Origin: Neolewinella agarilytica | Lineage (GTDB): Bacteria; Bacteroidota; Bacteroidia; Chitinophagales; Saprospiraceae | Direction: 5' to 3' | Length of the DNA stretch: 64,000 nucleotides | NCBI RefSeq assembly: GCF_900110645.1 | Contig: NZ_FOFB01000002.1 | Location: 124,001 to 188,000, forward strand | Shown: one piece after another, positions 12,867-37,828 of the stretch | How the letters are laid out: each line of letters begins with the position of its first letter | How positions within the stretch are numbered: the first letter of the stretch is position 1 | Notes under the pieces: generated by a model | What the model saw: only the letters and a program-made list of their open reading frames with translations | Databases searched by the model: none | Told to the model about the DNA's origin: nothing | Position numbers and translations under genes: made by a program

Positions 12867-14108
12867 TTACATCTTAATCCCATTAATCAACCGAAGCAGC
12901 GTACTGACGGCTACCTGAATGGTCTGGTCGTCCCGGTCGCGATCGGGGTTGACCTCCATCAGGTCTGCGCCAACGACGTTGACCCGGTCCAGTACGGTGG
13001 CCAGTAAGTCCAGTCCGGTTCGATAGCCCGGGCCATCGATGACCGGCGTTGCGGTGCCGGGGGCTACGGTGGGGTCGAAGAAGTCGATGTCAAAAGTCAG
13101 ATAGGTCGGTAGGTCCGGGTCGAGCTGTTGAACACTATTACTTTGCAGGAAGTCCGGAATTTCGTGGGCATAGACGATTTTGCAGCGAGCATCTTTCGGT
13201 GGTGTCATGGTGAACGGACCTCGAATACCAAATTGCCAGACCTTGGCGATTTTAGTAGACTTTAGGGCATTGCTCAGGAAATTACCGTGATGATGGGGGG
13301 CCTTGCCGCTGCCTGCGTAAAGTTCGGCTACCCGATTGACGTAAGTGTCGGTGTGAGCATCAAACTGGATGATCTGGATGGCTTCATGTTGCCGGGCAAC
13401 GCCGGCAATGGCGGGAAAAGTTAAGCTGTGGTCTCCGCCGAGCATAATGGGGACGTTGCCTTTTCCATTTATTTCTTCCGTAAGCCGTTCAACTTTGGCG
13501 TAAACGGAGGAGGGATATTCGTTGGGTTGTAAGACCAGGTCTCCGCCATCGGTTAATCTGTTACTTGCCAGCCATTCGCGCAGAGAAGTAAAAAAACTAT
13601 TGTCTGCACCAAAGCCCCGAAAGTCAAGTTGGTGATTTCGAGCATGTAGTGAAGAGAGATATGATTGGGTAAACCAACGAATTTTTGCGGGAAATTTAGC
13701 ACAAGCTCCATCCAGTTTATTGCCACTTCCAAAGGGGACGCCCAGTAAAACAAGACGACGATTCTGCAGATCTTCAGGAGCGGAGTCGTGGTAAGCAGGA
13801 ATACCCATTAAGGTTTTATTCGGCAACCGCCGGTGATAGGTCTCATCATCACCCGTTGCTACGATCACTCCTCCTTTACGTAATCGATTAAGCATTGTCT
13901 GCACCTCTTTTGAAGGAAATGAGGTTGATGTACGGTCAAGTAACTCTTCAATTGTTGTAGGTTCTTTTAGGTGAGTTAACAACTGATAAGCTAGCCGGGG
14001 CAAAACGAACTTGCGGCCATTCAGCTCATGGGTTATTTCATAGTTCTCTCCACGAGGAATAACGTTAAGGCAGCGAGCAGTGCGGTAGTGCAGGGAGTCT
14101 AGTGACAT
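12867..14108 (-). CDS. Arginase-fold enzyme with N-terminal PqqD-like domain (putative peptide arginase)
   Basis: A 413-aa two-domain protein. Residues 1-90 look like a PqqD-type RiPP recognition element: a beta start (ITHELNGRKFVLPRLAYQLLTHL), then helices (TTIEELLDRT...LNRLRKGGVIVATGD). Residues 115-413 form an arginase/agmatinase domain with all manganese ligands: His227 in GGDHS, Asp250/His252/Asp254 in FDAHTD, Asp340/Asp342 in FDIDFFDP, and LMEVNP near the end. Known RiPP arginases such as OspR turn peptidyl arginine into ornithine. The added recognition domain and the nearby precursors argue that this one also acts on a peptide. It is transcribed away from the sigma-factor operon. A free-arginine or agmatine hydrolase remains possible. 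Confidence 0.82.
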   Translation of the reverse strand: MSLDSLHYRTARCLNVIPRGENYEITHELNGRKFVLPRLAYQLLTHLKEPTTIEELLDRTSTSFPSKEVQTMLNRLRKGGVIVATGDDETYHRRLPNKTLMGIPAYHDSAPEDLQNRRLVLLGVPFGSGNKLDGACAKFPAKIRWFTQSYLSSLHARNHQLDFRGFGADNSFFTSLREWLASNRLTDGGDLVLQPNEYPSSVYAKVERLTEEINGKGNVPIMLGGDHSLTFPAIAGVARQHEAIQIIQFDAHTDTYVNRVAELYAGSGKAPHHHGNFLSNALKSTKIAKVWQFGIRGPFTMTPPKDARCKIVYAHEIPDFLQSNSVQQLDPDLPTYLTFDIDFFDPTVAPGTATPVIDGPGYRTGLDLLATVLDRVNVVGADLMEVNPDRDRDDQTIQVAVSTLLRLINGIKM

Positions 14109-14329
14109 CTAATAGTTGATTTGTTGATGTCTCAAATTTAGGGGGTGCTAATTGAATGATTAGGCTGTTTTTGGCGTGTTGTTTAATTCTTAAGTTGTTG
14201 TTATATAGTGTTTTGTGAAAACTTTGCTAAATTTTTAATTGATATATAGAGGGCTTGATTGTTGACTGTTCGTCCTCACAGAAGGCAATTTCCCGGCTCA
14301 TCTTTGTTGTGTCACCAATCAAAACGAAA

Positions 14330-14803: not shown

Positions 14804-14815
14804 ATCATTGCCACT

Positions 14816-15415
14816 ATGTCCACTTATCAGACAAATAAAAATGGAGCTAACTATCGAAACGATATGATTAAGCTGGATTTTCCTGAGCTCGTCAGTAAGT
14901 ATGACTCCCAGGTTTCGGCTATTTTGAATCGATATACTTCTTGCTCGATCACCCTAGACGAAATCAAGCAAAAGGCCTTTATAAAGGCTTATGAAAAACG
15001 ATCTCATTATCGGGGAGAGGCGAGTTTTGGGACCTGGCTGTTTACGATTGTTCGTACGGTGGCTCTTGACTACTTAAGTCGTCAGAAGCGCCGTGAGGAA
15101 AACCGCCAACGCTACGGTAAAACCTTACCCAGAAGCGGTTCTCTTGATCAGAAAATGAATCAACTGGACGCCGCCTCAATACGCGACGCGGTTCGTGCTT
15201 TACCGAAGGCTGATGCAATACTACTTGACTTGCATTATTTCCAGCAAAGAGATATCCGTGAAATTGCGATCTTCCTGGACTGTACTCCCAGTCACATCAG
15301 GACCAAGCTCTCTCGTGCCCGAGCCCGTGCTAAAACGAGCCTTCAAAAATACTTCGGTCAAGAATTAAACGACCTCTGTCCTGGCTGGTGCCAGAAAGAC
15401 ATGCCGCAGGCTTAA
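14816..15415 (+). CDS. ECF-type RNA polymerase sigma factor
   Basis: A 199-aa sigma-70 family protein. Region 2 is visible as ITLDEIKQKAFIKAYEKRSHYRGEASFGTWLFTIVRTVALDYLSRQKRR (about residues 46-95), and region 4 as a helix-turn-helix with DIREIAIFLDCTPSHIRTKLSRARARAKTSL (about 148-178). No anti-sigma gene with a membrane segment is next to it; the preceding Cys-motif protein is the only candidate partner. Its place at the head of the plus-strand biosynthetic genes suggests it controls the island. Confidence 0.9.
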   Translation: MSTYQTNKNGANYRNDMIKLDFPELVSKYDSQVSAILNRYTSCSITLDEIKQKAFIKAYEKRSHYRGEASFGTWLFTIVRTVALDYLSRQKRREENRQRYGKTLPRSGSLDQKMNQLDAASIRDAVRALPKADAILLDLHYFQQRDIREIAIFLDCTPSHIRTKLSRARARAKTSLQKYFGQELNDLCPGWCQKDMPQA

Positions 15416-15454
15416 TGGTCTTGATCTACTTTTAAAAGTTTAAAATTTCATCCA

Positions 15455-16231
15455 ATGAAATATCCTTATTCCTATATCGGAAATATTCGCTCTTTTTTCA
15501 CCCTGTCGATTTGCCTGAGCTTTTTCACTTGCTCCTTAGCGCAACCGGCTAATGTGAACGACAGTGAAGAGACCTCTGTGTCTATTGAATGGGACGTCCA
15601 TAACCCCTATTATCAGATTATGGCAGAGAATGTGGGCAAGCTAGATTCATTTATAGCGTATGAAGACCTCCAGCAATTAATCGGTACATTAGAGCGAGTA
15701 GCTCGGGTAGAGCAGGATGAAGCACTTCCTCAGTATTATCTGGCATTTTCTCTTTCGACCATGTCTTTCAAAGAAGATGACCTGGACAATATTGATAAAT
15801 GGTGTGATCGAAGTGAACTCGCTTTATATAAGGCGGAACAAATCGGCGGAATCGATGAAGAAGAAATATTGGTCATTCGTGCATTAATACAATATGGTCG
15901 TCTCAGAGTAGACTTTATGGGAAGGGGAATGGAGGCGAGTGCACAAGCAGAACGCTACTTGAGTAAGGGCTACAAGATGAACCCTGATAACCCTCGGATT
16001 TTAGCGGTACTTGGTCAACATTACCTCAATATTCCTCCACAGGTGGGGGGGAGTCGTGAAAAATCCTGCCAATTCCTTTCCTTGTCGAAGGAGGCCTTTG
16101 TAAAGGAAAAGCAGAGCTTCCCGGAAGGGATCTTTCCTATTGTTCCCCATTGGGGTGAGTTTGATGTGAATTATTTAGTCAACAAGTACTGCCGTTCAAA
16201 GCGAACCGAAGCTAAAACGAAGACCCCATGA
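15455..16231 (+). CDS. Exported TPR-like protein, paralogue of the 34324-35052 gene
   Basis: A 258-aa protein with a signal peptide (SFFTLSICLSFFTCSLAQP). The body is alpha-helical and TPR-like: LQQLIGTLERVARVEQDEALPQYYLAFSLS, a central helix pair, then YLSKGYKMNPDNPRILAVLGQHYLNIPPQVGGS. The same order of motifs (single helical repeats, NPRAYLLTTRHVMNTP..FGGG, then SPSWGQ versus VPHWGEF) appears in the exported protein at 34324-35052, so they are paralogues, one in each arm of the cluster. Function unknown; a periplasmic role in product handling is a guess. Its stop overlaps the thioesterase start by ATGA. Confidence 0.78.
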   Translation: MKYPYSYIGNIRSFFTLSICLSFFTCSLAQPANVNDSEETSVSIEWDVHNPYYQIMAENVGKLDSFIAYEDLQQLIGTLERVARVEQDEALPQYYLAFSLSTMSFKEDDLDNIDKWCDRSELALYKAEQIGGIDEEEILVIRALIQYGRLRVDFMGRGMEASAQAERYLSKGYKMNPDNPRILAVLGQHYLNIPPQVGGSREKSCQFLSLSKEAFVKEKQSFPEGIFPIVPHWGEFDVNYLVNKYCRSKRTEAKTKTP

Positions 16232-16701
16232 TGCGCGTAGTTCCTCAAAGCTCAGTTACGAGTCCAGCCCCTTCAGCGGGAAAAATCTACCACGAAACAA
16301 TTCTTTCCGTTCGGTTTTGCGAGGTAGATAGCTATCAAATTGTTTGGCATGGTAACTATGTCAACTACCTGGAAGTAGGTCGTGAGGCCTTTGGAAAGAA
16401 ATTCGGGATCAGTTATCAAAGCCTTATAGACAGGGGACTAAGAGCTCCTATTATTCACGTTGAGATGAACTACCGCCGTTCACTGAAATATGGAGATAGG
16501 TTTCTTGTACTTACGGAATATGTTGAAAAGCCTCAGGCTAAGATTTGCTTTAGCTATAAGCTTACTTCTCTTGATGGGAAAATCATTTATTGTCGGGGTA
16601 AAACGGAGCAAGCCTTACAAGATATTGATACTGGCCGGACGCTACCCAGCCTTCCGGACTGGCACGCAGGTTGGCTGGCCCAGGCAAAGTCAATGATATG
16701 A
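16228..16701 (+). CDS. Hotdog-fold acyl thioesterase (4-hydroxybenzoyl-CoA thioesterase type)
   Basis: A 157-aa single hotdog domain. The pattern LSVRFCEVDSYQIVWHGNYVNYLEVGREAF is the 4HBT/YbgC-type motif, with the Asp-containing turn and active-site helix. Such enzymes hydrolyse acyl-CoA or acyl-ACP; here the expected substrate is the polyketide or aryl acyl thioester, for release or editing. It overlaps the TPR gene upstream and the ketosynthase downstream by ATGA, so translation is coupled. Similar thioesterases occur in flexirubin and aryl polyene clusters. Confidence 0.85.
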   Translation: MMRVVPQSSVTSPAPSAGKIYHETILSVRFCEVDSYQIVWHGNYVNYLEVGREAFGKKFGISYQSLIDRGLRAPIIHVEMNYRRSLKYGDRFLVLTEYVEKPQAKICFSYKLTSLDGKIIYCRGKTEQALQDIDTGRTLPSLPDWHAGWLAQAKSMI

Positions 16702-17768
16702 AAAAGGCAGCTGTCATAACTGGTCATGGACTGGTAAGTTCTTTCGGGGACTCAACGGAGGCAAACTGGCAGTCCCTTTTAGCAGGGTATATCGGCTTAC
16801 GAAAAGAAAAAGTAGCCGGTGGATATGCCTGCCCCGTTGGGCGAATTTTTCAGGAAGGAATCTTTTCGGATCCGGAGTTTGTGGACCTTACAAGGAGTAC
16901 GCTTAAAAGCCCTCCGATGGGGTGGGATTGGACTCGTTCTGCTACCAGCTGGATACTTTGTTCTGCAAAAGGGAACATCACAGGGTTAGGTCATAAAGGT
17001 GCTTACAGCCTGGCAGACAGTGCTAAAAGCATTGCTGATGATTTGAAGCTGATAAATACCCCCACCTGTATCAGTACTGCTTGTACGAGTAGCCTTGCAG
17101 GTATTGTACTGGCAGTACGGATGATGAAGTCGGGTCAGTATACGCATGTTGCCGTAACGGGTTGTGATCTTGCATCAGATTTTGTTCTCAATGGGTTTAA
17201 TCGAATCAATGCAGTCTCTCCTGAAATTTGCCGGCCATATGATGCGGACCGTAAGGGTATAAATCTGGCGACAGCTGCAGCGACCATTTTTTTAGAATGG
17301 CGATCACCAAAACCTGGTGAGATTTACCTGACCGGAGAGGCGACTTCTAATGATGGCTTTCATATTTCCCGGCCTAAACCTGATGGTGCTGGTTTGAGTG
17401 ACTGTATCCGCCGTAGCTGCGGAACGGAGATTCCTGATTTTATTTGTGGGCATGGTACGGCTACCTTACTCAATGATAATATGGAGAGTGAGGCCATTGC
17501 TCGTAGTGGAATGGCTACTATTCCTTTATTTAGCATAAAGGGGCAAATAGGACATACCCTTGGCGCTTGTGGAGTATTGGAAACAGTTGTTACGGCCAAA
17601 TGCCTGCAAGAAGACACGATTCTTTCTTCTTGCGGTTTTAAGAAGCCTGGCACCAGTGCAATCATTAACGTTTCCCGTAAGGTGCAAAAACGCCCCTTAC
17701 GTTCAGCTCTTAACCTCTCCGTTGGCTTCGGTGGGGGGAATGCGGCCATCCATCTTACCAAAGCATAA
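16698..17768 (+). CDS. Beta-ketoacyl-ACP synthase (KAS II/aryl-polyene type)
   Basis: A 356-aa condensing enzyme. The Cys-His-His triad is intact: Cys129 in STACTSS, His252 in GHGTATLLND and His286 in KGQIGHTLGA, with a C-terminal GFGGGNAA. It should elongate acyl-ACP chains in the type II pathway. It is shorter than typical FabF because part of the N-terminal region is reduced. The ATG at 16698 overlaps the thioesterase stop, and MKKAAVITGHG is the usual N-terminus of this fold. Confidence 0.9.
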   Translation: MKKAAVITGHGLVSSFGDSTEANWQSLLAGYIGLRKEKVAGGYACPVGRIFQEGIFSDPEFVDLTRSTLKSPPMGWDWTRSATSWILCSAKGNITGLGHKGAYSLADSAKSIADDLKLINTPTCISTACTSSLAGIVLAVRMMKSGQYTHVAVTGCDLASDFVLNGFNRINAVSPEICRPYDADRKGINLATAAATIFLEWRSPKPGEIYLTGEATSNDGFHISRPKPDGAGLSDCIRRSCGTEIPDFICGHGTATLLNDNMESEAIARSGMATIPLFSIKGQIGHTLGACGVLETVVTAKCLQEDTILSSCGFKKPGTSAIINVSRKVQKRPLRSALNLSVGFGGGNAAIHLTKA

Positions 17769-17778
17769 AGCAGAACCG

Positions 17779-18384
17779 ATGCATCAATTCAGGCTTACGA
17801 ACGATTGCTTATTTCAGGACGGTTCTCCCTACCGGAACAGAGCCGAAGGGCAATGCCTCCGGGATTTCCTTATGGCTTTACTTCAGGAATTTTACACTGG
17901 AGAAAGCTACCGCTTTAAGGTAGTCGATGACCTGGGGCTGGCTTGTTTAGCTACAACTGCGGTTTGTGTATATCACGAAAAAAGGTGGCATTCTACGGTG
18001 CTGGAAAAACGTGCGCTGGTATTTGCCACTCATCATGGCTCAATAGTTACTGATCAGGAATACCAAAATTGCCTTGACCTAAATAGGCGAACCAGCCCCA
18101 GAGTTTTTGTGCAAACGCTGCCCAATATGGCTGCTGGCCAGGTGGCTGCCTGCTTTGGAATACGAGGCGAATACTATGTGTTGGTGCAAACCTCGCCCGA
18201 TAATGCGACACTTGAAAATACGGCTGCCTTGACGCTTGCATACGGAGGGGCTGATCTTTGCCTGACTGGTTGGATGGAATATACCATTGAACAAGAGCTA
18301 ACCGTAAAGATGACCATTCGTTATGCCCATGAAAAAGACCAGTTTGTAGGGTCTTTAGCATCAGCTTCAATTGCCCGGTCGTAA
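17779..18384 (+). CDS. Short ketosynthase-like protein
   Basis: About 201 aa, beginning at MHQFRLTNDC ten bases after the ketosynthase. The segment VFATHHGSIVTDQEYQ...TSPRVFVQTLPNMAAGQVAACFGIRGEYYVLVQ matches the N-terminal half of ketosynthases up to the position of the active-site loop, but the protein ends soon after and lacks the two catalytic histidines. It cannot condense by itself. Comparable short proteins sit beside ketosynthases in aryl-polyene and flexirubin clusters. A helper or partner subunit is likely. Its last 64 bases overlap the end of the convergent SPASM-type gene. Confidence 0.68.
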   Translation: MHQFRLTNDCLFQDGSPYRNRAEGQCLRDFLMALLQEFYTGESYRFKVVDDLGLACLATTAVCVYHEKRWHSTVLEKRALVFATHHGSIVTDQEYQNCLDLNRRTSPRVFVQTLPNMAAGQVAACFGIRGEYYVLVQTSPDNATLENTAALTLAYGGADLCLTGWMEYTIEQELTVKMTIRYAHEKDQFVGSLASASIARS

Positions 18385-19331
18385 CGGAGGCAATACCGGA
18401 GAGGGTTGCTCGAAGTATCGGAAATCACATCTGGATTAGCGCGCCAGCGTTGTTGGAATTGAGGGTCAATGATTACTTCCTTAATCGTTCGCTGGCCAAT
18501 TTTACCAAAGGTTTCCTGGCCGCCATATAGCAGGTCGTTTTTAAAGTACCCTTGGGAATCAATGGCTAGCCGGCGATTGAAATAAGGATTGGCTACGCGC
18601 GATTCCCGGAAGTAAGCTGGCCCGACAAAATGTACGTTTGGACGAAGCTCCCAGGTTTTCTTAGCGTAATCCATGAGGGTGTTCGCGCAGCGCAAGTAGT
18701 ATTGCCGTTTCCCAATTTTCAGGTTGATATCTTTTTCTTGCCCTAAGAGTACTACGGTGCCAAAACGAGGCCAATCGTGCAATAAACGGTCCACTTCAGC
18801 GGGGTTTACTACTGGCATTGCTGTTTGGCCCACTCCTAGCACCAGCGTTCCGCGCCTAAATTCTCCTTGCCGTAAAGCAGCGCCAATTTGGTCCCATACT
18901 GCGCTATCTTCTTCTTTAAGAGAATAGTTGTGCAGTTGTAACTCTAAAGTGCGACATCCCACATCAGATAGTTCTAGTAGAGCTGAGGGTAAGTCGTATG
19001 GCTGAAGCCTGTCATGTGATACAATCCCGGAGTTGATAGCGTAGGGGCTTTCCCACGATAAGTCCGCCGCTGGAAAAACTTGCGGCTTCGTTGTCGTAAA
19101 GGCCCATTTTTCCTTTAGCAGAAAATCGGTATAGCGATGAAATACCGTTTCGTTACCGGCAAAAGTCTCTTTCAAAACTTGTTGGGTCGGGGCCATTTGA
19201 AATGCCTTAAGAATGGATTCCAGGATGAGAGGAACCGTTCGAACGCGTCCGCCCTGAAGGTCATAGAGTGCGCCCAACTGGCTTCCCTTTACGAATTCGA
19301 CGTGTGCATATAGATGTAAGTAGTCATTCAT
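18321..19331 (-). CDS. Grasp-with-spasm SPASM-type maturase partner, iron-sulphur cysteines mostly lost
   Basis: A 336-aa protein matching, from memory of the family, the GwsS partner of ATP-grasp peptide maturases. Residues 1-95 form the N-terminal PqqD-like region (GALYDLQGGRVRTVPLILESILKAF...FLLKEKWAF...FPAADLSWE). The centre is a barrel-like region without a CxxxCxxC motif, as usual for GwsS. The C-terminal SPASM segment is recognisable (NPYFNRRLAIDSQGYFKND about 248-266; FGKIGQRTIKEVI), yet the positions normally Cys are Tyr, Asp, Ile or Thr; only Cys126, Cys215 and Cys314 exist in the whole protein. It probably cannot bind the usual clusters and may act as a peptide-binding partner for the ATP-grasp enzyme. 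It overlaps the 80-aa gene by ATGA. Confidence 0.78.
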   Translation of the reverse strand: MNDYLHLYAHVEFVKGSQLGALYDLQGGRVRTVPLILESILKAFQMAPTQQVLKETFAGNETVFHRYTDFLLKEKWAFTTTKPQVFPAADLSWESPYAINSGIVSHDRLQPYDLPSALLELSDVGCRTLELQLHNYSLKEEDSAVWDQIGAALRQGEFRRGTLVLGVGQTAMPVVNPAEVDRLLHDWPRFGTVVLLGQEKDINLKIGKRQYYLRCANTLMDYAKKTWELRPNVHFVGPAYFRESRVANPYFNRRLAIDSQGYFKNDLLYGGQETFGKIGQRTIKEVIIDPQFQQRWRANPDVISDTSSNPLRYCLRYDRAIEADAKDPTNWSFSWA

Positions 19332-19570
19332 GATATTTCATCTTGTTCTTCACAAAAATCTCCATCCCACCAAACGCTATTTCGTAATATGTCTGAACCA
19401 ATGATGGGTAAATTGGAGCAGTTATGTCTGGATGCATAGGCCTTCTGTCGATCTCGTTTAGCGAGTTCGGGTAAAGACTCTCGGTTGAGGCGGGCGATGA
19501 ATAGGTAAGACAGAGGTAATTCGCCATTGTCGAGGCCCTGAAAAAGGTCGTTGAAAGGTTTATTTTCCAT
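19328..19570 (-). CDS. 80-aa protein between the maturase genes
   Basis: The ATG at 19570 lies inside the end of the ATP-grasp gene and the stop overlaps the start of the SPASM-type gene, so translation is coupled at both ends; this tight packing is the main evidence that the gene is real. The sequence starts MENKPFNDLFQGLDNGELPLSYLF, has a charged middle (KRDRQKAYASRH), two Cys residues and an acidic Trp-rich end (SVWWDGDFCEEQDEIS). Not recognised. It could be a small maturase subunit or a further substrate peptide. Confidence 0.65.
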   Translation of the reverse strand: MENKPFNDLFQGLDNGELPLSYLFIARLNRESLPELAKRDRQKAYASRHNCSNLPIIGSDILRNSVWWDGDFCEEQDEIS

Positions 19571-21815: not shown

Positions 21816-22484
21816 TTAATATTTATCCATCTGATTAAGTGAAGACCAGTGGTAAAGATTGAGCTGGACATCTAATGGCGTTTCTCCTGCTAGCGTACAT
21901 TGATATCCATCGCTTACTGGAATGTTTTGCAGGTAGTAAGACTTGCCTTCGAAAGTCACTTGATTGCTGAGTGCTTCCAGCTTTCGAAAATTAACCCTCA
22001 TGCCTAGTCCCAGTAATTTTGTAACGGCTTCCTTACGTGACCACAGGCGTGCAGCCCGGCTTTTTTTGCCGGCAACCCAGTCCAGCTCTTGAGCAGTGAA
22101 TACCTGATTCAAGAGTCGTGGACCCAGGTTTTTTTCTCTTTGAATGTCGATACCTACCCTTTTCCCCTTTTCCCCAATAGCGCAAACGGCCAACTCTCCA
22201 GAGTGAGAGATATTAAAGTCTGGAAAAGCTTTAATATATGGCCGGCCGTAAATGGCTTTCGACCAAACGGTAGTTTCGTTTATTGGGTGTCCTAATTCCG
22301 CAAGACCTTTAAACAAAAGTTGCCGACCTAGCAGGGACATCCACTTTTGATTGTGGTTTTGGTAACGGAGGATGGATTCCCTAAAGGAGGTGTCAGGAAG
22401 ATAGCATAATGCAAATTCAAGCGATTCCTGAGAGAAGTCAAATTGGTTGCCAAAATTTCCGCAAAATACCGTTGATGTTCTCAT
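21816..22484 (-). CDS. Sfp-type 4'-phosphopantetheinyl transferase
   Basis: A 222-aa protein that loads the phosphopantetheine arm onto the carrier protein serine. The family motifs are present: the basic N-terminal region with RQLLFKGL, FNISHSGELAVCAIG, GIDIQREKN (Mg2+ ligands) and WSRKEAVTKLLGLGM. The ACP at 33983-34243 is its likely target. Its ATG overlaps the stop of the acyltransferase gene. Confidence 0.92.
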   Translation of the reverse strand: MRTSTVFCGNFGNQFDFSQESLEFALCYLPDTSFRESILRYQNHNQKWMSLLGRQLLFKGLAELGHPINETTVWSKAIYGRPYIKAFPDFNISHSGELAVCAIGEKGKRVGIDIQREKNLGPRLLNQVFTAQELDWVAGKKSRAARLWSRKEAVTKLLGLGMRVNFRKLEALSNQVTFEGKSYYLQNIPVSDGYQCTLAGETPLDVQLNLYHWSSLNQMDKY

Positions 22485-24840: not shown

Positions 24841-24872
24841 CGTTGGGTAAATTTTTAATTTAGAAGGAGAAA

Positions 24873-24908: not shown

Positions 24909-24928
24909 GGTTAGTGTATTAAAACACT

Positions 24929-29840: not shown

Positions 29841-29954
29841 TAGACGAGTCTCAAGGAGCAATCGCTACGATAGGAGCTTGTTTTTTTAGCTAAATATTTA
29901 TTTTTTGATACTTATCCGATGAGGAGCTGGGTGAATGGTTTTATGGTTTGTTTT

Positions 29955-30022: not shown

Positions 30023-31318
30023 TTATTTTCTATAGTCAATAAATTTTCTTGGCTTTCGTCCTCCGGAAGGGAATTGCATGCGATACATTTCTTTTTTCGA
30101 TACTTCGAAAAATGTAGGCTTTAGCCGTAGCCGGGCATGGCATATTTCTTTTAAATGAACTTGTAGTTCGAGGTCGTTTACTCCGGCTACTGTGGTGAAG
30201 TATATTCTCAGGTCGTCTTGGCCAGATTCATTGGTAAATACTTCTATGACATAATTTTCTAATTCTGCTACAGAATTTAAGGAGTCATGAATAGCCGGAG
30301 GGTATATAGTTGTTCCCTTCACTTTTAGCATTTGGTTTTTTCGACCAATCACGGGGCTGAGCCTCGGAGTTGTGCGGCCGCAGGCACAAGCTTGATTGTG
30401 AAGTTGAACAAGATCTCCTGTGCGGAAACGAATCAAAGGCATTCCTTCTACCCCAAGGGTGGTGACAACCAGTTCCCCGATTTCTCCAGTAGTGACTGGA
30501 AAGCCAACTTGGTCCAGGACTTCGATATGGGTGAGTTCTGGATTGTGGTGACCTCCCTGACCCTCGCTACATTCGGTGAAAGCAGCACCTATTTCAGTGG
30601 AGGCATAGGTGCTGTGCAAGGATAATTCGGGCCATGCTTCTTTTAGTCTTCGCCCTAGTTCATTCAAACTAAAGTCAGGTTGGCGAATACTTTCACCTAT
30701 GCAAATCACCTTGCGTAAAGAACTCGACCGATAATCAATACCATTCTCTTTAGCAAAGTGGATCAGCCTGAGTAAGAATGATGGTACACAGATAATAGCC
30801 GTGGGTTCTTCTCTGCGGATGCAATCCCATTGACTTAACAGGTTGCAAACTCCTTGGCGTATAACTGAGGCGCCAATTTGGCGAAGTCCCAGAAAGTAGG
30901 CTAAGCCAGCCATGAACCGTTGATCCATTGTACAGCAAAGCATTACAGTGTCTTGGCTACCAATGCCTGCAAGGGTGAGGGAAGCAGCTTCATTGCGTGT
31001 CAAGCGGTTCAAGTCAGAGTCTGTCAGGACAAAAGGAGTTGGCGTGGAGGTAGTTCCTGAGGTGCAGGAACGGTCTATGATTTGCTCATCTGATACACAG
31101 ATGAATTTGCGATAGTCTTTGGCAATATCCTCTTTTGTGGTGCAGGGGATTTGGCGAAAATCAGTATAAGTCATGATGCTGCCAGGCTTCAACCCTAATT
31201 GCGAAAAGAGTTGAAAATAGTAGGGGCTGTAAGTCCCTGCATAGTTGATAGCTTTGCGTAATAAAACGGGGAGCAGGCCGATCTCCTGGCTGACCAATGG
31301 TGAAATAAGCTTAGTCAT
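30023..31318 (-). CDS. PaaK-like acyl-acid/AMP ligase
   Basis: A 431-aa adenylate-forming enzyme. The ATP motif is SCTSGTTSTPTPFVL (about 85-100), YASTEIGAAF is the central adenine motif, and RFRTGDLV precedes a Cys motif (ACACGR) as in phenylacetate-CoA ligases. The C-terminal subdomain carries the catalytic Lys region. In flexirubin-type pathways such enzymes activate the ammonia-lyase product and load it on ACP or CoA. The ATG at 31318 is used; the codon before it is GTG. Its start overlaps the dehydratase stop by one base. Confidence 0.88.
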   Translation of the reverse strand: MTKLISPLVSQEIGLLPVLLRKAINYAGTYSPYYFQLFSQLGLKPGSIMTYTDFRQIPCTTKEDIAKDYRKFICVSDEQIIDRSCTSGTTSTPTPFVLTDSDLNRLTRNEAASLTLAGIGSQDTVMLCCTMDQRFMAGLAYFLGLRQIGASVIRQGVCNLLSQWDCIRREEPTAIICVPSFLLRLIHFAKENGIDYRSSSLRKVICIGESIRQPDFSLNELGRRLKEAWPELSLHSTYASTEIGAAFTECSEGQGGHHNPELTHIEVLDQVGFPVTTGEIGELVVTTLGVEGMPLIRFRTGDLVQLHNQACACGRTTPRLSPVIGRKNQMLKVKGTTIYPPAIHDSLNSVAELENYVIEVFTNESGQDDLRIYFTTVAGVNDLELQVHLKEICHARLRLKPTFFEVSKKEMYRMQFPSGGRKPRKFIDYRK

Positions 31319-31713
31319 CACATTTTTATTTTTAGATTAGGTATATTGTTTTGGTAGCTGGCAACCATTTTAACTGCTGGCTTTCCATCCGCACATAGCA
31401 TCCCGCGTACGCGCCAAATACCTTCTCCTGTTTTTTTTATTTTTAGTACTACTTCCACCTCGGGATTAAGTAATGGGTTGACGAAGCCGAGGTATTTGAT
31501 GGAGTCAATCTTTTTAGGCCTTTCAAAGCCATCATAATGTGCGGCAGCCAGTTGCGTCATGATCTCTAGCGAACAAACGCCTGGAGTGATGGGGTTGTCA
31601 GGAAAATGGCCTTTGTATATTGAATGACTAGCGTTTAGTTGCAATTTAAATTCGCCACCTTCTGGCTCATTCTCTTGTTTGATAACCTTGAAGAGTGAAT
31701 CGATAAAGTGCAT
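31318..31713 (-). CDS. FabZ-like 3-hydroxyacyl-ACP dehydratase
   Basis: A 131-aa single hotdog domain. The active-site segment is GHFPDNPITPGVCSLEIMTQLAA, with the His and the helix Glu in the FabZ positions. It should remove water from 3-hydroxyacyl-ACP and leave a double bond, as required for a polyene. It overlaps the ligase gene and ends the run started by the chain-length-factor-like gene, ten bases away. Confidence 0.88.
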   Translation of the reverse strand: MHFIDSLFKVIKQENEPEGGEFKLQLNASHSIYKGHFPDNPITPGVCSLEIMTQLAAAHYDGFERPKKIDSIKYLGFVNPLLNPEVEVVLKIKKTGEGIWRVRGMLCADGKPAVKMVASYQNNIPNLKIKM

Positions 31714-31722
31714 AGCGTTTTA

Positions 31723-32718
31723 TTATTGTTGGGTTACTAAAAAGGCGCTCAGGTACCGCTCGCCATAGTTATTAATGACGAGTATGCGCTCAGGAGTGGT
31801 AGTGCGAGATTTTACTTCTGTCCCCGAGAGCGCTTTTACCGCTAAATACAAGCCATGTGCTGCAGCGGTAGGAAACTCTCCTGTTTGGAGTTTGTAATTT
31901 ATTACTGGGACATCCTGACTAAAAGCTTCCAGAATATTGTCATAACTCCTTTGGGCTTCGTTACCGAATGGACGGCCGCTTATAATCAGGTCTACGGTAG
32001 GAATAGTTTCTCCAAAGAGCGTTCTTTGTAGTTCTTGAGCAGACCATTCCCTGCGTGCAGTATCTGTTAGGAAAACAGTGAATATTGAGCGAAGACAGGC
32101 CTGTGTTTGGGCAGAAGGCTGGCCTGAAACCAAAAAGGTAGCGCCTCCCTCACCAATTGTACGATTTACTTTATCAGAGGGGGCAGAGGTTAGCTGGCCA
32201 TATTTTGCAGACATTTCTGCGTAAAGGTCGTGGCCAACGATATCTAAACCTCCCACTATGATGTTTTGAGAGGATTTTGTCTGCAACTGTAGGGCTGCAT
32301 CCATAAGAGCAGATTCTATGGAGAAGCCTCGTTGGGTATGCGTATTAGAATAGCCGTTGCAATTTAATCGTAAGGCGATTTGCCCGGCAGCGGTACCTAA
32401 TAGGCTATTCATAAAGCGAGTTGGATTGGTTAGGCCTTCCTGATATTCGATCATTTTGCGTAGCATATCGTCAGTCGTTTGGCTAACGGTTTGCCCAATG
32501 CCCATAACTACGCCATCAATGGTCTCTATTTTGGCTTCTTCAAGTGCTGCGTAAGTAGTATGGAGAGCAAACCGACTGAGTCGGTCCATTCGCCTAAGTT
32601 TACGCTTATCTATATATTGGGTGTAATCTGGTTCTTCTACTTGGATAGAAGCAACTGAGATATCGGTAATAGGTTTGGCTCCGATTCGAGCCGCTCCATT
32701 AATGTAGACTGGTTGCAT
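31723..32718 (-). CDS. Chain-length-factor-like ketosynthase partner
   Basis: A 331-aa protein of the thiolase/ketosynthase fold. Where active ketosynthases have Cys in their nucleophile elbow, this one reads NTHTQRGFSIESAL, with Gln beside the expected site; the two catalytic His motifs are also gone (ISGRPFGNEAQ in place of HGTxTxxND). This matches the chain length factors of type II polyketide synthases and the ApeC-type partner in aryl polyene systems, which dimerise with an active ketosynthase. It follows the ketosynthase by one base, so the two are surely coexpressed. Confidence 0.83.
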   Translation of the reverse strand: MQPVYINGAARIGAKPITDISVASIQVEEPDYTQYIDKRKLRRMDRLSRFALHTTYAALEEAKIETIDGVVMGIGQTVSQTTDDMLRKMIEYQEGLTNPTRFMNSLLGTAAGQIALRLNCNGYSNTHTQRGFSIESALMDAALQLQTKSSQNIIVGGLDIVGHDLYAEMSAKYGQLTSAPSDKVNRTIGEGGATFLVSGQPSAQTQACLRSIFTVFLTDTARREWSAQELQRTLFGETIPTVDLIISGRPFGNEAQRSYDNILEAFSQDVPVINYKLQTGEFPTAAAHGLYLAVKALSGTEVKSRTTTPERILVINNYGERYLSAFLVTQQ

Positions 32719-32719
32719 A

Positions 32720-33940
32720 TTAGGTTTTACTTAGGACCATGGAGGAGCAGTAGCCGCCCATTCCAGTAGCATTAATAATTACATTGTTTACAGACTGCTT
32801 CTCGAGAGTTGTCGCTAACGGGCCTGAGCTTAGCTCTGGCATCGCTTCGGTCCAATTGTAATTTGGGTATTTCGTGCCGTTTAGAATACTCGTTATTCCA
32901 ACGCCGGTGTTGATGGCTCCGGAGGCTGCTAGGGTATGCCCAAAGCTCGATTTTAGCGATACATAATCAGGGACAGCAACTTCTGAAAACAAATTGTGAA
33001 TTGCAGCTCCTTCGCTTGCATCATTGTTGGGAGTTGCGGTTCCATGTGTTAGTATATAATCTACTTTATCTAGAGGCGTTTTGGATTGCTCAAGAGCAGA
33101 GCGCATAGCCATCTGAATTCCCACCCCATCGGGGGAAATCGAAGACGGGTGAAAGCGGTCGTTGTGGTTTCCATAGCCGGTAATCATTGCGATGGGCTTA
33201 TTACCAGTTCGGCGTAGAGACGTTTCCGTTTCTAAGACAAAGTAGGCAGCTCCTTCTCCAAGATTGATACCCGAACGGGTAGCGTCAAAGGGGCGACAGC
33301 GGTTCTGATCAAGAAGTCTGAAGCTATTAAAGCCATTAATGGTAAACCTGCACAAAGCGTCGGCTCCTCCCGCAATGGCAATGTCAAGTTGGCCTGCCTG
33401 CAACAATTGAACGGCATTCCCTATGGCGTTGAGCGAGGATGAACAAGCTGTACTTATAGTCGATAAATACTGGACTCCGCCTAAGCGTTCGGCCAGATAT
33501 TCCGCACAAAAAGCTGCTCCTCCTAACTGGAAGAAGTTGATGTTATGGAGGCGCCCTTCCACATGGTTGATATATCCATCTTCAGTGACATCCATCCCCC
33601 CAACGGTTGTTCCAGAAATGAGCCCGAGCCGCCCGCCAGCTCTATGAGCGTGGCGAGCTTGCTCGATGGCTTGTTCAACGGCTTTGGTGGCCAGGATGGA
33701 AGTTCTGTTCAATTGATATCCTCCCTGATTGGTTATTTCAGCGCGAAGGTCTTCTGTCTCTCGCTTGATTTCACCTACAGGAAAGGTCCCGCGATGACGG
33801 GTATTAAGGATTTCAATATTGCTAATTCCTCCTTTTGCGTCCGCGATTAGTGAGGTGTGAATTTCCTCGGGCGTCCAGCCTAAGGAGCAATTCATCCCCA
33901 TCCCGGTAATATAGATCGGTTCCATAAGTCCGTAATTCAT
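32720..33940 (-). CDS. Beta-ketoacyl-ACP synthase (active KS)
   Basis: About 401-406 aa. The catalytic residues are present: Cys in STACSSS, His in HGTATPNND and His in SSFGHTLAASG. GMGMNCSLG at the N-terminus and the C-terminal NATGMGGYCSSMVL are standard. It should be the main elongating enzyme, paired with the chain-length-factor-like protein. Two starts are possible, ATG at 33940 or ATG at 33925 (MEPIYITGMG); the second gives the more usual N-terminus. It follows the ACP gene by 42 bases. Confidence 0.92.
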   Translation of the reverse strand: MNYGLMEPIYITGMGMNCSLGWTPEEIHTSLIADAKGGISNIEILNTRHRGTFPVGEIKRETEDLRAEITNQGGYQLNRTSILATKAVEQAIEQARHAHRAGGRLGLISGTTVGGMDVTEDGYINHVEGRLHNINFFQLGGAAFCAEYLAERLGGVQYLSTISTACSSSLNAIGNAVQLLQAGQLDIAIAGGADALCRFTINGFNSFRLLDQNRCRPFDATRSGINLGEGAAYFVLETETSLRRTGNKPIAMITGYGNHNDRFHPSSISPDGVGIQMAMRSALEQSKTPLDKVDYILTHGTATPNNDASEGAAIHNLFSEVAVPDYVSLKSSFGHTLAASGAINTGVGITSILNGTKYPNYNWTEAMPELSSGPLATTLEKQSVNNVIINATGMGGYCSSMVLSKT

Positions 33941-33982: not shown

Positions 33983-34243
33983 TTATGCAGCGGCAGAAGC
34001 AGAGCGCTCCTTGATGTAGTCGTAAAGCGTATTTACAGAAGAAAAGATGTTGTGCATATCTTCATCTTGACCTACTTTAATGTCGTAGTACTTTTCCAGT
34101 AAAACAACTAGTTCGAGTCCGTCGATACTGTCGAGGCCAAGTCCTCCACCAAAGAGCGGGGCGGCGGCGTCAATTTCGTCGGGAGTAATATCAAGAGCGA
34201 GCTCTTCGATAATTCTCAATTTGAGTGTGTCTATTGCGGACAT
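33983..34243 (-). CDS. Acyl carrier protein
   Basis: An 86-aa carrier protein. The phosphopantetheine attachment site is the Ser of GLDSIDGLELVVLLEKYY, and the flanking helices are acidic as usual. It is the only ACP in the window and is the likely scaffold for the polyketide chain, activated by the Sfp-type transferase at 21816-22484. It comes directly before the ketosynthase. Confidence 0.93.
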   Translation of the reverse strand: MSAIDTLKLRIIEELALDITPDEIDAAAPLFGGGLGLDSIDGLELVVLLEKYYDIKVGQDEDMHNIFSSVNTLYDYIKERSASAAA

Positions 34244-34323: not shown

Positions 34324-35052
34324 TTAATCGCGCTTAGAGCCTGATTCGTCAGCGCAATCAATGGTAGCAGCGATTTCATCACTCTCTGCTTGCCCCCAGG
34401 AAGGACTGAGAGGGTCACGTTCTTCATTAGCTTTTTCTAGTTCAAAAGCTCTCTGAGCGGCACCACTGTATTTGCAAATTTTTTCGATGTCTCCACCACC
34501 AAATACTGCTGGTGTGTTCATTACGTGTCGGGTGGTTAATAGGTAGGCTCGTGGGTTTTTCCCATTTGCTTTTACGGCAGCTTTTAAATGACCCAAGGCT
34601 GTTGAATTCAACTTGTAACCACGAATCATTGGGTTTGCCCGCATACTACCATATACCAGGAATGCTTGTAGTGTCTCGATTTCGCTTACATCAACATTAG
34701 AACAATTGCTGGCTTGCTCAACAGCTTCAGTGGCTTTTTCAACCCAACCGTCTATGTCCTTCTTTTTTTCAATAGTGTGAGCAATTCGACCATATGCATA
34801 AGCGAGGTGGTAATGAGCTAACCAGTTTTCGGGCTCCTGCTTGGTAACTGTTTCGAGAACGGTTGCAGCGGCTTCAATTTCTTCGAGTGATTGAGCCTCA
34901 CGCAGGCCTGCAACAGCTTCGCAAAGAGTCTCCTCATATGCTTCAATTGTTGCCGTTTCCTCATCTGATGATGCAACTGCGTACGTACCGGCTAAGCAGC
35001 TCATTGTGATGCTGCATAAGGCAGCTAGAGTGATAAATAAGAACTTTTTCAT
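34324..35052 (-). CDS. Exported TPR-like protein, paralogue of the 15455-16231 gene
   Basis: A 242-aa protein with a signal peptide (MKKFLFITLAALCSITMSCLAG). The Cys in TMSCLAG could be a weak lipobox. Helical repeats follow: ETVTKQEPENWLAHYHLAYAYGRIAH, EATEAVEQASN and KNPRAYLLTTRHVMNTPAVFGGG. Its organisation matches the protein at 15455-16231. It lies between the TonB receptor and ACP genes on the minus strand. Function unknown; having one copy in each arm ties the two arms into one system. Confidence 0.78.
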   Translation of the reverse strand: MKKFLFITLAALCSITMSCLAGTYAVASSDEETATIEAYEETLCEAVAGLREAQSLEEIEAAATVLETVTKQEPENWLAHYHLAYAYGRIAHTIEKKKDIDGWVEKATEAVEQASNCSNVDVSEIETLQAFLVYGSMRANPMIRGYKLNSTALGHLKAAVKANGKNPRAYLLTTRHVMNTPAVFGGGDIEKICKYSGAAQRAFELEKANEERDPLSPSWGQAESDEIAATIDCADESGSKRD

Positions 35053-35063
35053 AATAATAAAAT

Positions 35064-37346
35064 TTAATTAAGTTGTTGATTAATAATGTCATCCGTCCGG
35101 TCAATGCCGAAATTGACAAAGTATCCTAGAAATAGATATCTTTCCGTAAGGGGGCCAATAGCTCGTCGGATGTTAAAATCGTTCGCACTATATTCGTAAT
35201 TGAGGGTTTGCTCAAAATTGAAAGCATTATAAACTGTCAAAACAATGACACTGAATGATTTCTTTGATTTAGGCAGGTACGCAATATTGAAATTGACGTT
35301 ATGATATGTTTTAGTTCGATCAGAGTTGAACTCTCCTAGTGGTCGGTTTGGGTTGTAGTAAGGTCTTCCGGAACCAATAGTATAGGTAGAGGATAAATTA
35401 ATCATCTGCTTTTGGAAGAAATGCTTTACTACAATGTTCCCTACATGCTTAGCCGCAAAATTAGGTTGAGCGGATACCGGATAATGCGAATAGCGACGTT
35501 CTGAATCCAGGTAACTGTACGTGAGCCATATGTCAGTTCCTTTATTAAGGCTTCGGTCACGATAGAAAACATCAAGACCTCGAGCATATCCTTTACCTGT
35601 ATTATTATAGCTGGGGTTTTCTAAGTCTGTGTCGAATAGTACCAGCTGATCATATTCCTTTCTGTATAATTCTGCTCTGAAACTGCGTTTGTTTTCATTA
35701 CGATTGTAGCCAAAGGTGAAGTGTTTGGCTCTTTCGAAATTGAGATTGCCTCCGGTAAGGTATAATTGCTGAGTAGCAGGGCGCTGGTGATAAACCCCCC
35801 AACTTGCAAAAAGCTGTTCTTTACTTCCTAGTATATAATTCAGATTCATACGAGGAGCGAAGTTCGTTTGGGATAGTAGGTCACTGTATTCTACCCGTAA
35901 CCCCGCACGTCCGTGAAGTCTTCCAAATAAGGTGCCTGCTCTTTCAATAAAAGCCGCTCCGTAAGTGTCATTGAATATTCCGGTGAATTCTTCTACATCA
36001 ATCAGGTCTCTACGGTGTTGTATTTCTGCTCCAAGATCAAAGGTTTGACTCTTATGACGGTGGTTGAGGTTTATACGGGCCTGACTCAACATGTTTTCTT
36101 CCCTGATAAACTCTCCGGCTTCAATTGGTAGAAGGTCTTCTTCAGAAATGAATTGATGGACGTTCGTGAAGCGTTTTCCGTACCCCATTCCGCCCGTTAA
36201 TGTCCATTGGTTTGATAGCTCATGAGAAATAGTACTTTGCCAAAAAACATTTTTATTTTTTAATTGAGTGTGGTCACTTATTGTGGGGTTGTCCAGGTTT
36301 TGATCAAAGATTCCAATTTTAGAGTCTCCAATACTGCCGAAAGATTTGATAAGTGTACCCTCAACTGGCGCCCACTTAACATTCGCAGTACCTTCATATG
36401 TGACGGGGTATTGGGTGAAGGACTTTCGCGAAGGCATAAGTCGTAGAAACAAACCAAGGTTTTGGTATTTGCCAGTAGCGCCGACGGAGAAATTTCCCTT
36501 CCTGTTTACTTTTTCAAAACCAGCTTCTCCAAATAAAGGGCTAATGCCGATGTCGGCGCTTGATTTATTGGGAATATCAGTAGTTTCGAGCACTAGTGCC
36601 CCTGATATGGCTTGCCCATATTTTGCGGAGAAGCCTCCCGTACTCAGAAAAGTTCCTTTGAACATATTCGCGGAAAACCTTGCGGAACCAGCTGTGTTGG
36701 AAGGACTACTGTAATTGAAGTTGTCCACCAACATCCCGTCAACAAAGGCCTGGGACTCCCGTCCGGATCCTCCTCTGATGAATAAGCCGCTTGTCGTTGC
36801 TGCAGGTTGTACTCCAGCCATAGTTTGAAAAGCTGATTGCACATTTCCGTCTACCGCTGTTGTTAATGCTTCTACCCGATTTAGCTGAGTTGTACGTGCT
36901 TTGTCTGTAGTGTGGATTTGACGAACATCACTGACAACCACTTGCTCAAGACTTAAAGTTTCTTTTCCGAATTCAATGTCCACAGTGACACTGTCAGTTC
37001 CTGCCAGGCTAAGATTTCGTTCTACGTTCTCAAATCCGAACATACTCACAATTAGCCTAGCTCCGCCAGTTGCCGCAGTAGAGAAATGAAAGCTTCCGTC
37101 CAGATCTGTTACCGTCCCGTCATAAGTACCTTCTACCTGAAGGCTTACACCAATAAGTGGCTCTCCTTTCTTATCGTGTACTTTGCCATAGATAACCGTT
37201 TTGTCAGGTGCAGAAAAGTCCTCAGCGGCCTGAGCGAATATCTGTTGTCCTCCAACAATAATGAGTACTAGCCAAAAAGCTAAGGCTGGAATCTTAGAGT
37301 GAGTCAGCGAATTATGTAGCTTGGGTAGCAGTTGTATGAGTATCAT
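35064..37346 (-). CDS. TonB-dependent outer membrane receptor of the island
   Basis: A 760-aa outer membrane protein. Signal peptide at residues 15-40; carboxypeptidase D-like domain (TVIYGKVHDKKGEPLIGVSLQV, about 48-130); plug domain with VQSAFQTMAGVQPAATTSGLFIRGG and AFVDGMLVDNF; then the beta-barrel to the C-terminus. Lying inside the operon between a dehydratase and the TPR/ACP genes, it may take up or export the product, or act in self-protection; sequence alone does not decide. Its ATG overlaps the dehydratase stop by one base. Confidence 0.87.
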   Translation of the reverse strand: MILIQLLPKLHNSLTHSKIPALAFWLVLIIVGGQQIFAQAAEDFSAPDKTVIYGKVHDKKGEPLIGVSLQVEGTYDGTVTDLDGSFHFSTAATGGARLIVSMFGFENVERNLSLAGTDSVTVDIEFGKETLSLEQVVVSDVRQIHTTDKARTTQLNRVEALTTAVDGNVQSAFQTMAGVQPAATTSGLFIRGGSGRESQAFVDGMLVDNFNYSSPSNTAGSARFSANMFKGTFLSTGGFSAKYGQAISGALVLETTDIPNKSSADIGISPLFGEAGFEKVNRKGNFSVGATGKYQNLGLFLRLMPSRKSFTQYPVTYEGTANVKWAPVEGTLIKSFGSIGDSKIGIFDQNLDNPTISDHTQLKNKNVFWQSTISHELSNQWTLTGGMGYGKRFTNVHQFISEEDLLPIEAGEFIREENMLSQARINLNHRHKSQTFDLGAEIQHRRDLIDVEEFTGIFNDTYGAAFIERAGTLFGRLHGRAGLRVEYSDLLSQTNFAPRMNLNYILGSKEQLFASWGVYHQRPATQQLYLTGGNLNFERAKHFTFGYNRNENKRSFRAELYRKEYDQLVLFDTDLENPSYNNTGKGYARGLDVFYRDRSLNKGTDIWLTYSYLDSERRYSHYPVSAQPNFAAKHVGNIVVKHFFQKQMINLSSTYTIGSGRPYYNPNRPLGEFNSDRTKTYHNVNFNIAYLPKSKKSFSVIVLTVYNAFNFEQTLNYEYSANDFNIRRAIGPLTERYLFLGYFVNFGIDRTDDIINQQLN

Positions 37347-37828
37347 TATTTAGTATTTTGGTCTTTTGGCCCCATGAGCCCCATTGTGCAGGAAACGAGC
37401 AATTGTTCTCCTACGTAGCAGAAAAAAGACATGGTACTATGGTTCCCATTCTGCGTGATAGTGGATGCTTCTGTTCGTAGAGTCTCCCCTAAGCGAGGAA
37501 GCCTTTCGTATTGAAGAGATCTGATGTTTACGATAAAACCAAATTCTCCTTTGCCCGTCTTACTCGCATCGCGAGGGCCTGACATTGATGCTGCTTTATA
37601 GGCCTGCCCAAGGCCAGCAGATTGGGCCATGTGCTCAATGGCACCACCTAAAAGCATTTCTCCAGTATCTGTGACAAATGGGTTTTCAGGACGAATCAGG
37701 AGCTCTCCTACTATTGTTCCCCCCTTGATGCCAAGTAGGCGATCAACAAGAATCATTGGCTCTCTATGAGGCAGGTAATTGGTAACCTCCTGGCGGTCGA
37801 TCAATGGGTGGCCGTAATGGTGGAACAT
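37346..37828 (-). CDS. ApeP-like 3-hydroxyacyl-ACP dehydratase
   Basis: A 160-aa hotdog protein related to the FabA/FabZ-like dehydratases of aryl polyene clusters. Motifs are NYLPHREPMILVDRLLGI at the start, then ENPFV...LLGGAIEHMAQSAGLGQAYKAA, the active-site helix with Glu and His, and FFCYVGEQLLVSCTMGLM. Having two dehydratases fits a chain in which nearly every keto group ends as a conjugated double bond. It heads the minus-strand polyketide operon. Confidence 0.85.
   Translation of the reverse strand: MFHHYGHPLIDRQEVTNYLPHREPMILVDRLLGIKGGTIVGELLIRPENPFVTDTGEMLLGGAIEHMAQSAGLGQAYKAASMSGPRDASKTGKGEFGFIVNIRSLQYERLPRLGETLRTEASTITQNGNHSTMSFFCYVGEQLLVSCTMGLMGPKDQNTK

Follow-up and report, generated by a model that had tools for sequence, protein, structure and literature searches.

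The 64,000-nucleotide window analyzed here covers positions 124001-188000 of contig NZ_FOFB01000002.1 of Neolewinella agarilytica (G000:C26; genome size 6.22 Mb; the genomes compared are given below as G numbers and their loci as L numbers). Between positions 12867 and 37828 it carries a cluster in which genes for a ribosomally synthesized and post-translationally modified peptide (RiPP), namely three precursors, an arginase, an M50 protease and an ATP-grasp enzyme with its partner, stand together with type II aryl polyene genes and an acyltransferase (AT) that bears a predicted peptide-docking type domain (Table 1). We propose that the locus probably makes a polyene-acylated ribosomal peptide whose acyl chain is an aryl polyene. 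The gene content, its recurrence, the appended domains and the pairing of core residues with enzymes were computed directly.

Open reading frames (ORFs) together with Pfam and NCBIfam scans found the RiPP and aryl polyene gene types, the three precursors included, where the initial annotation had placed them. Its gene list was incomplete, lacking the plus-strand set, a glycosyltransferase, a phosphopantetheinyl transferase and a TonB-dependent receptor, and its assignment of all genes to one strand failed at five plus-strand genes (14816-18384: ECF sigma factor, TPR-like protein, 4HBT thioesterase, second ketosynthase and second chain length factor-like gene). One of its two dehydratases is FabA-like; the second gave no match in the Pfam scan and is presumably a dehydratase, named from a motif alone. 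The cluster is AT-rich as described, with a GC content of 0.42-0.48 against 0.48-0.59 in the other 2-kb bins, except that the flanking bin at 38-40 kb is equally low. Motif inspection found the active sites of both ketosynthases, the lyase, the acyl carrier protein (ACP), the M50 protease and the arginase intact. A genome of the same genus, G216, most probably Neolewinella lacunae KCTC 42187, holds the same genes at ~50-82% identity and in the same order except for the precursors, of which it has five, located after the AT (core example SSRCDVGGDVEVPEISVRMA), while those of the window precede the M50 gene. This conservation indicates that the gene grouping is more than chance. N. lacunae was the sole match in a single-sequence scan of genome contigs.

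Table 1. Features of the cluster at 12867-37828 of the window
Feature	Position	Strand	Remarks
Peptide arginase	12867..14108	-	PF00491 ureohydrolase, GGDHS / DAHTD / DIDFFD; predicted N-terminal PqqD/RRE-like domain, residues ~8-84
ECF-type sigma factor	14816..15415	+	Sigma70_r2 E 3.3e-14
TPR-like protein	15455..16231	+	No Pfam match itself; resembles the second copy at 34324-35052 via G216
4HBT thioesterase	16228..16701	+	4HBT_2 E 1e-10
Second ketosynthase (KS2)	16671..17768	+	TACTS/HGTAT/KGQIGHT intact
Second chain length factor-like protein	17560..18384	+	ORF likeness to G216 and G168; start probably ~17779, beyond the KS2 stop
'Grasp-with-spasm' partner	18321..19331	-	TIGR04193-like, 3 Cys only
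ATP-grasp peptide maturase (graspetide synthetase type)	19560..20561	-	TIGR04192-like, E 8.4e-58, under curated cut-off
UDP-glycosyltransferase-like protein	20565..21791	-	Pfam scan
4'-Phosphopantetheinyl transferase	21816..22484	-	ACPS E 3.2e-14
Acyltransferase (AT)	22481..23641	-	LpxM/PatA fold, invariant His98; predicted C-terminal PqqD/RRE-like domain, residues ~307-376
M50 intramembrane protease	23686..24840	-	HELGH, DGYW; daptide HExxH family E 1.5e-30; putative N-terminal PqqD/RRE-like domain, by profile only
Precursor peptide 3	24929..25093	-	Core ...SARCDDNRSVDIAVSV
Precursor peptide 2	25422..25601	-	Core ...SSRCDGNEVDIEVDVELSAMR
Precursor peptide 1	25948..26130	-	Core ...SSRCDGNDVDIQVDVELSAIDR
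3-Ketoacyl-ACP reductase (short-chain dehydrogenase)	26289..27041	-	Pfam scan
Aromatic amino-acid ammonia-lyase (MIO ASG), probably tyrosine	27038..28651	-	Lyase_aromatic E 9.5e-159
S-adenosylmethionine (SAM) methyltransferase	28644..29861	-	Pfam scan
AMP-binding acid ligase	30023..31321	-	Pfam scan
FabA-like dehydratase	31318..31713	-	Pfam scan
Chain length factor	31723..32718	-	No active-site Cys
Ketosynthase	32720..33940	-	TACSS/HGTAT/KSSFGHT
Acyl carrier protein	33983..34243	-	DSI motif
TPR protein	34324..35052	-	Signal-like N-terminus by eye
TonB-dependent receptor with CarboxypepD_reg domain	35064..37346	-	Pfam scan
Probable hot-dog dehydratase (second dehydratase)	37346..37828	-	Similar ORF in G216

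A possible physical link between the enzymes and the peptide lies in a domain of the type known as PqqD or RiPP recognition element (RRE). The AlphaFold model of the AT ends in a domain of three strands and three helices, bbb(b)-aaa-b, with 10-residue means of the predicted local distance difference test (pLDDT) of 92-95 over residues 301-370. The arginase carries a domain of the same topology ahead of its agmatinase fold (pLDDT means 76-85, residues 11-80), in a model of mean pLDDT 76.6 whose alignment has 6 rows only. Comparison with hhalign paired the AT C-terminus with the arginase N-terminus at E 6.4e-4, the arginase N-terminus with the M50 N-terminus at E 3.5e-5 and the AT C-terminus with the M50 N-terminus at E 3.2e-3; the other 52 pairs gave E>=0.011, so that the three RRE-like domains pair best among themselves, at modest E-values. 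In this comparison the G216 row of the ATP-grasp control ended at the locus end, and the N-terminus of the SPASM protein gave no match to the RRE-like profiles (E>=0.085). No window protein matched PqqD in Pfam or NCBIfam, and among six arginases Pfam found PqqD in one (E 0.059). The AT and the arginase are thus predicted from their models to carry a PqqD/RRE-type winged-helix domain, and the M50 N-terminus, by profile only, a PqqD/RRE-like one; the leader may dock on all three.

The AT is the sole acyltransferase among the scanned cluster proteins, and general Pfam scans gave no GNAT acyltransferase among them. It matches Lip_A_acyltrans (Pfam, E 1.9e-5), its AlphaFold model has the LpxM/PatA fold and is nearest to LpxM (5KN7, E 1.8e-11), and its His is invariant in 28/28 alignment rows. 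In a tree, ATs with the RRE-like domain (RRE-ATs) separate from three ordinary LpxL rows (support 93/93), with the deep order left open and several long branches. Searched as a single sequence in 298 genomes of the order, the AT gave 11 matches at E<=0.001. Its profile matched 32 of 344 genomes of the G168 family at E<=1e-9, 15 of which (16 loci) scored >=247 bits; the remaining 17 (39-47 bits) resemble ordinary LpxL and were not counted. Ten of 199 genomes of the window's family had a match, eight at >=100 bits, that of G960 being a fragment. The RRE-AT set comprises 26 loci in 25 genomes, G216 and G226 included, and a class-wide draw of 395 genomes (7 at E<=1e-20) adds G475, G1405, G534, G1355 and G299. 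Within the window's order, RRE-ATs are thus scattered across two families or more (15/344 and 8/199 genomes), and another order has one candidate (G1355).

A 251-nt repeat, present three times (64, 100 and 89% identity), contains the three window precursors, and the leader pattern of the precursors is GLxxxELExRLEMV. With a leave-one-out hidden Markov model (HMM), a precursor of the same leader family was found within 4 kb of the AT at 22 of 26 AT loci of the window's order, in a scheme in which the same-genus pair G797/G743 was not mutually held out, nor was G226 from the window and G216, and in which G221-type precursors, initially chosen by eye, were later part of the training set. The same HMM matched none of 37 control windows (243 kb). 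Two of the matches are weak (G876, E 0.0019; G713, E 0.0054), and the loci without a precursor at this distance are G807, G1004, G960 and G168, the last with two precursors ~9 kb off. Near the class-level RRE-AT relatives the HMM gave no match (0/5 loci, including G475, G1405, G534 and G299). Across 395 genomes of the phylum the precursor profile had five matches: G000 and G034 are true, G511 is the fifth, and G603 and G459 (E ~0.008-0.009) were rejected as precursor loci, having no AT, arginase or M50 relative within 20 kb. Judged by sequence, the RRE-AT marks a RiPP family with one leader family.

The arginase adds a second association. It belongs to PF00491 (E 5.8e-50), as do 6/6 members of its family, PF12640 not being among the matches. 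RRE-arginases (E<=1e-40) occur in 6 of 199 genomes of the window's family, and all six lie within the eight RRE-AT genomes (hypergeometric 3.5e-10); the hybrid-cluster reading thus did well in the co-occurrence check that the initial annotation had proposed. A search of 20 further genomes found full-length RRE-arginases in G216 and G226 only, with merely partial ureohydrolase matches (profile position >=180) in 15, none in G909 and G713, and a match from position 70 in G1355; the 17 other AT genomes searched had no full-length RRE-arginase. At least one [K/R]-C pair is present in 37/37 precursors of 8 arginase loci versus 0/21 of 16 others (Fisher 1.4e-6 by locus), in a test that ignores relatedness (G034 and G243 have their peptides in common) and a count that omits the arginase locus G1004, the AT loci G807 and G960 (no precursor) and the G226 copies with N runs. 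K-C replaces R-C in seven of the 37, four of them from G161. The G992 and G1066 arginases lie off the AT contigs, next to an M50 gene and to further precursors of the family (4 in G992, 2 in G1066), all RC. This pairing favors ornithine, the predicted arginase product, as the attachment residue; the acceptor is the least certain point of the proposal, and for the ornithine amine itself we see the balance as even, Ser/Thr/Cys coming next and the smallest share falling to other residues or to no transfer at all. As a separate observation, G1355, from a different order of the class, has a precursor-like ORF, an arginase and an AT in a row (L122:10159-12716); the precursor core, VRCNNRCSGNDTTVEV, was picked by eye and is illustrative rather than a test, and its RCSGND is shared with one G953 core.

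LpxL/PatA-type enzymes are mainly O-acyltransferases, their usual acceptors being hydroxyls. In the same hybrid, the RRE-AT might instead acylate a Ser/Thr hydroxyl or the conserved Cys, with ornithine either staying free or acquiring the chain afterwards, for instance through an S-to-N shift from Cys. Such a placement, which we consider rather unlikely though worth weighing, would suit the cores of arginase-less AT loci such as SCCFDTQPPMPPG, which have no [K/R]-C, and the Cys that immediately follows R or K in 37/37 arginase-locus precursors. Against it, at least one R-C or K-C occurs in every one of these precursors, as would be expected if the amine there matters, and two of three G953 cores have no Ser/Thr in the five residues preceding RC, though Ser follows RC.

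The ATP-grasp and precursor genes lie in one cluster, 4-5 kb apart. The initial annotation spoke of ATP-grasp/SPASM maturases, and the likeness to TIGR04192 and TIGR04193 is real, with both proteins under the curated cut-offs: the ATP-grasp scores 196 bits against a cut-off of 230 (MvdC, E 3.4e-33, is also under its cut-off), and its partner 74 bits against 175. With only 3 Cys kept, the SPASM-type protein probably does not carry the usual Fe-S clusters. A core pattern chosen after inspection of the cores, [S/T]xx[C/L]D, is present in 20/20 precursors of four ATP-grasp loci (window, G216, G226, G168) versus 2/38 elsewhere. One of these two exceptions comes from G1014, which was therefore searched, with seven other genomes, for an ATP-grasp; one was found (E 3e-96) on a contig with ACP, ketosynthase (KS) and thioesterase genes, probably part of the same cluster as the AT. 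The other ATP-grasp match among the eight, in G161, lies in a separate locus with a different leader type. Six of the eight genomes searched had no ATP-grasp at E<=1e-15, including G953, G992, G1066, G1004 and G1355, of which G992, G1066 and G1004 are 84-91% complete. From this pairing the ATP-grasp is predicted to form a Ser/Thr-to-Asp ring; we know of no ring of this kind at i,i+4. L158:8342-12241 (G161 C13) holds a grasp-with-spasm system of its own, whose leader peptide is, by eye, of the GG type.

Graspetide synthetases can also use Lys (corallotide, PMC13097080), and ornithine might by the same token donate to an ATP-grasp lactam with Asp or Glu, with the acyl chain placed elsewhere. We regard this as improbable: G168 and G1014, which have an ATP-grasp but no RRE-arginase, still show [S/T]xx[C/L]D although [K/R]-C is missing, and the five genomes just named have the arginase with no ATP-grasp match.

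At 8 of 26 loci the AT is accompanied by polyketide or lyase genes, arranged in several ways. A KS lies within ~15 kb of the AT in seven (window, G216, G168, G161, G953, G992, G1066), while G1014 has a lyase beside the AT, its KS and ACP being on another contig. The lyase-containing sets are those of the window, G216, G168 and G1014; in the locus DNA examined, no lyase was seen in the polyketide sets of G161, G953, G992 and G1066. No polyketide genes were found in the locus DNA of G226, G034, G243, G960 and 13 G221-type loci, and the G1004 contig is just 6.2 kb. The polyketide genes are an optional module of AT/peptide loci, and the association is modular, not obligatory. The linkage of peptide and polyketide genes claimed earlier is thus seen in eight loci, and each module also occurs alone.

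In the window itself, KS, chain length factor (CLF), ketoreductase (KR), dehydratases (the second by motif only), ACP and aryl starter enzymes are all present. The closest match of the lyase is tyrosine aminomutase 2OHY (E 1.1e-99), its own LIRSHCSG, in which we take the His to mark tyrosine use, aligning with LVRSHSAG. The match supports a putative coumaroyl starter.

Aryl-polyene pigment and an ordinary modified RiPP could be two separate products made in parallel, since the related KS mostly occurs without RRE-AT and RiPP modules occur without KS in G226 and G034. We think this quite unlikely, as the sole acyltransferase among the scanned proteins bears the RRE-like domain and stays with precursors where polyketide genes are absent, and polyketide genes keep company with the AT repeatedly and in varied arrangements. 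Moreover, none of the RND exporter or Lol-like genes of aryl polyene clusters (PMC8253772) was found among the scanned proteins of 12867-37828, the rest of the genome lying outside the search. An ordinary fatty acid as acyl chain, with the polyketide genes serving another tailoring step or a pigment, seems very improbable here. AT loci without polyketide genes would need another donor, probably fatty acyl-ACP, which speaks for it; against it, genes for an ACP, a ligase, a lyase and a phosphopantetheinyl transferase are part of the cluster itself and are all retained in G216, and G168 also has lyase, ligase, ACP and KS.

Several observations weigh against an aryl polyene joined by this AT to ornithine. 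Of the LpxL pair HX4D/E, the AT alignment retains only the His throughout, and the window row alone has an acid at the second place. Some AT/peptide loci have no polyketide genes, and G226 has arginase, ATP-grasp and AT yet no KS within 35 kb. Related KSs (E<=1e-80) occur in 28 of 138 other genomes of the order, among which a single-sequence search, which may have missed some, detected an RRE-AT in G034 alone, and there on a different contig. The arginase and RC motif fall mostly within one family, and the patterns were chosen post hoc, so the counts are not independent. Finally, [K/R]-C is absent from the arginase-less AT loci, so the AT family would not always use an amine there; the aryl polyene on arginase-made ornithine of the initial annotation gains from the pairing at arginase loci and loses by this absence, and its interpretation as a whole is partly supported.

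The pathway that follows, from its chemistry and the docking of the leader to the sequence of steps, the acceptor and the ring, is our inference for the window. The ammonia-lyase would convert tyrosine to p-coumarate, which the ligase would load onto the ACP, itself primed by the phosphopantetheinyl transferase. KS/CLF, KR and dehydratases would elongate this starter to an aryl-polyenoyl-ACP, and the methyltransferase would decorate the chain. The precursor leader would dock on the RRE-like domains of the arginase, the AT and the M50 protease. The arginase would turn the core Arg of [S/T]-x-Arg-Cys-Asp into ornithine, and the LpxM-fold AT would take the polyene from the ACP and place it on the core, with the ornithine amine as the likeliest acceptor. 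The ATP-grasp would link the Ser/Thr side chain with the Asp four residues on, forming a small ring around Orn-Cys, and the M50 protease would cut off the leader in the membrane. In effect, the ribosomal peptide would take the place of the lipid anchor of ordinary aryl polyenes.

On the best reading, the cluster would follow the logic of selidamides and goadvionins while using enzymes unrelated to theirs. Selidamides (kamptornamide, phaeornamide) and other Orn/Lys-acylated RiPPs (nostolysamides) likewise combine a ribosomal peptide, arginase-made ornithine (or Lys) and side-chain acylation, which here is predicted; in those systems a GNAT carries out the acylation (PMC13060382) and most peptide arginases belong to pfam12640 (PMC12703449), whereas the cluster pairs an LpxM-fold AT with a PF00491 arginase, each predicted to bear an RRE-like domain, and an aryl polyene would replace the fatty acid. 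Goadvionins and lipolanthines, with a polyketide or fatty acid on a class III lanthipeptide, share the acyl-RiPP hybrid logic and a dedicated acyltransferase; they are acylated at the N-terminus and contain class III lanthipeptide rings (PMC13060382), while the cluster uses type II aryl-polyene enzymes and no lanthionine synthetase was found among its scanned proteins.

Aryl polyene and flexirubin clusters have in common with it the KS, CLF, KR, dehydratases, ACP, ligase, methyltransferase, thioesterase, acyltransferase and glycosyltransferase. For the canonical clusters the proposal is that ApeD/ApeJ link the polyene to a lipid anchor, and export is of the RND/Lol-like type (PMC8253772); here the scanned proteins include no such exporter and the acyltransferase bears a domain of the peptide-docking type. 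Grasp-with-spasm graspetides share the TIGR04192-like ATP-grasp and TIGR04193-like partner, but here the SPASM protein is Cys-poor and the leader is unlike the GG-type leader at the G161 C13 locus (by eye). Enteropeptins share a PF00491 arginase (KgrD) acting on an Arg adjoining Cys. Their thiomorpholine is made by a radical SAM enzyme, and no radical SAM family match was found among the scanned cluster proteins. KgrD requires prior thiomorpholine (PMC12703449). The initial annotation described lipidated RiPPs as known from other phyla, a statement overtaken by the DAG-RiPPs reported in Bacteroidota, in which the lipoprotein pathway adds lipid to an N-terminal Cys (PMC12636315). The words arginase, acyltransferase, ketosynthase and flexirubin do not occur in the main text of PMC8939145. 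The literature searched (titles and abstract starts, with most subscription journals outside coverage) yielded no description of such a hybrid.

More tentatively, and with somewhat less than even confidence, we suggest that these ribosomal lipopeptides form a class of their own, marked by a single leader family together with an LpxM-fold AT that has its own docking domain, and served by exchangeable acyl-donor modules (fatty acid, type II polyketide, aryl polyene). The window branch would be an aryl-polyene amide of arginase-made ornithine inside a Ser/Thr-to-Asp ester ring, anchoring an outer-membrane pigment chain to a peptide. If true, this would be a second, unrelated natural route to lipidate ribosomal peptides (LpxM-fold versus GNAT), would link common aryl-polyene chemistry with peptide natural products, and would offer a compact leader-guided enzyme set (arginase, acyltransferase, protease) accessible to co-expression. 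The pairing rules between enzymes and cores yield concrete predictions for each genome.

Other members of the family differ in their surroundings. The G034 (L033:10782-15170) and G243 (L035:13565-17954) loci have the same leader family, an AT and, by eye, a radical SAM/SPASM-like enzyme, with cores such as CCSFTDSSC and neither arginase nor KS at the locus. Thirteen G221-type loci (L019, L080-L101) have an AT with, in most, one upstream precursor, the core often being SCCxDTxPPxPPG. At the G221 locus a LytS-like kinase and a LytTR-like regulator come next (by eye), and gene sizes are compatible with this in most other such loci, which possibly encode an acylated signal peptide. A LanC-like protein lies near the AT in three loci (L016:2579-3751, L086:1531-2760 and L091:955-2181; PF05147 E 1.5e-14 in G168). 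Within the window, a small protein of no Pfam family is encoded at 14255-14803, with similar proteins at the G216, G226 and G1066 loci. A conserved hairpin, perhaps a terminator, lies 3' of each precursor (24854-24934, 25347-25427 and 25873-25953), and the stretches after the precursors fold at -32 to -36 kcal/mol, chiefly as one hairpin each.

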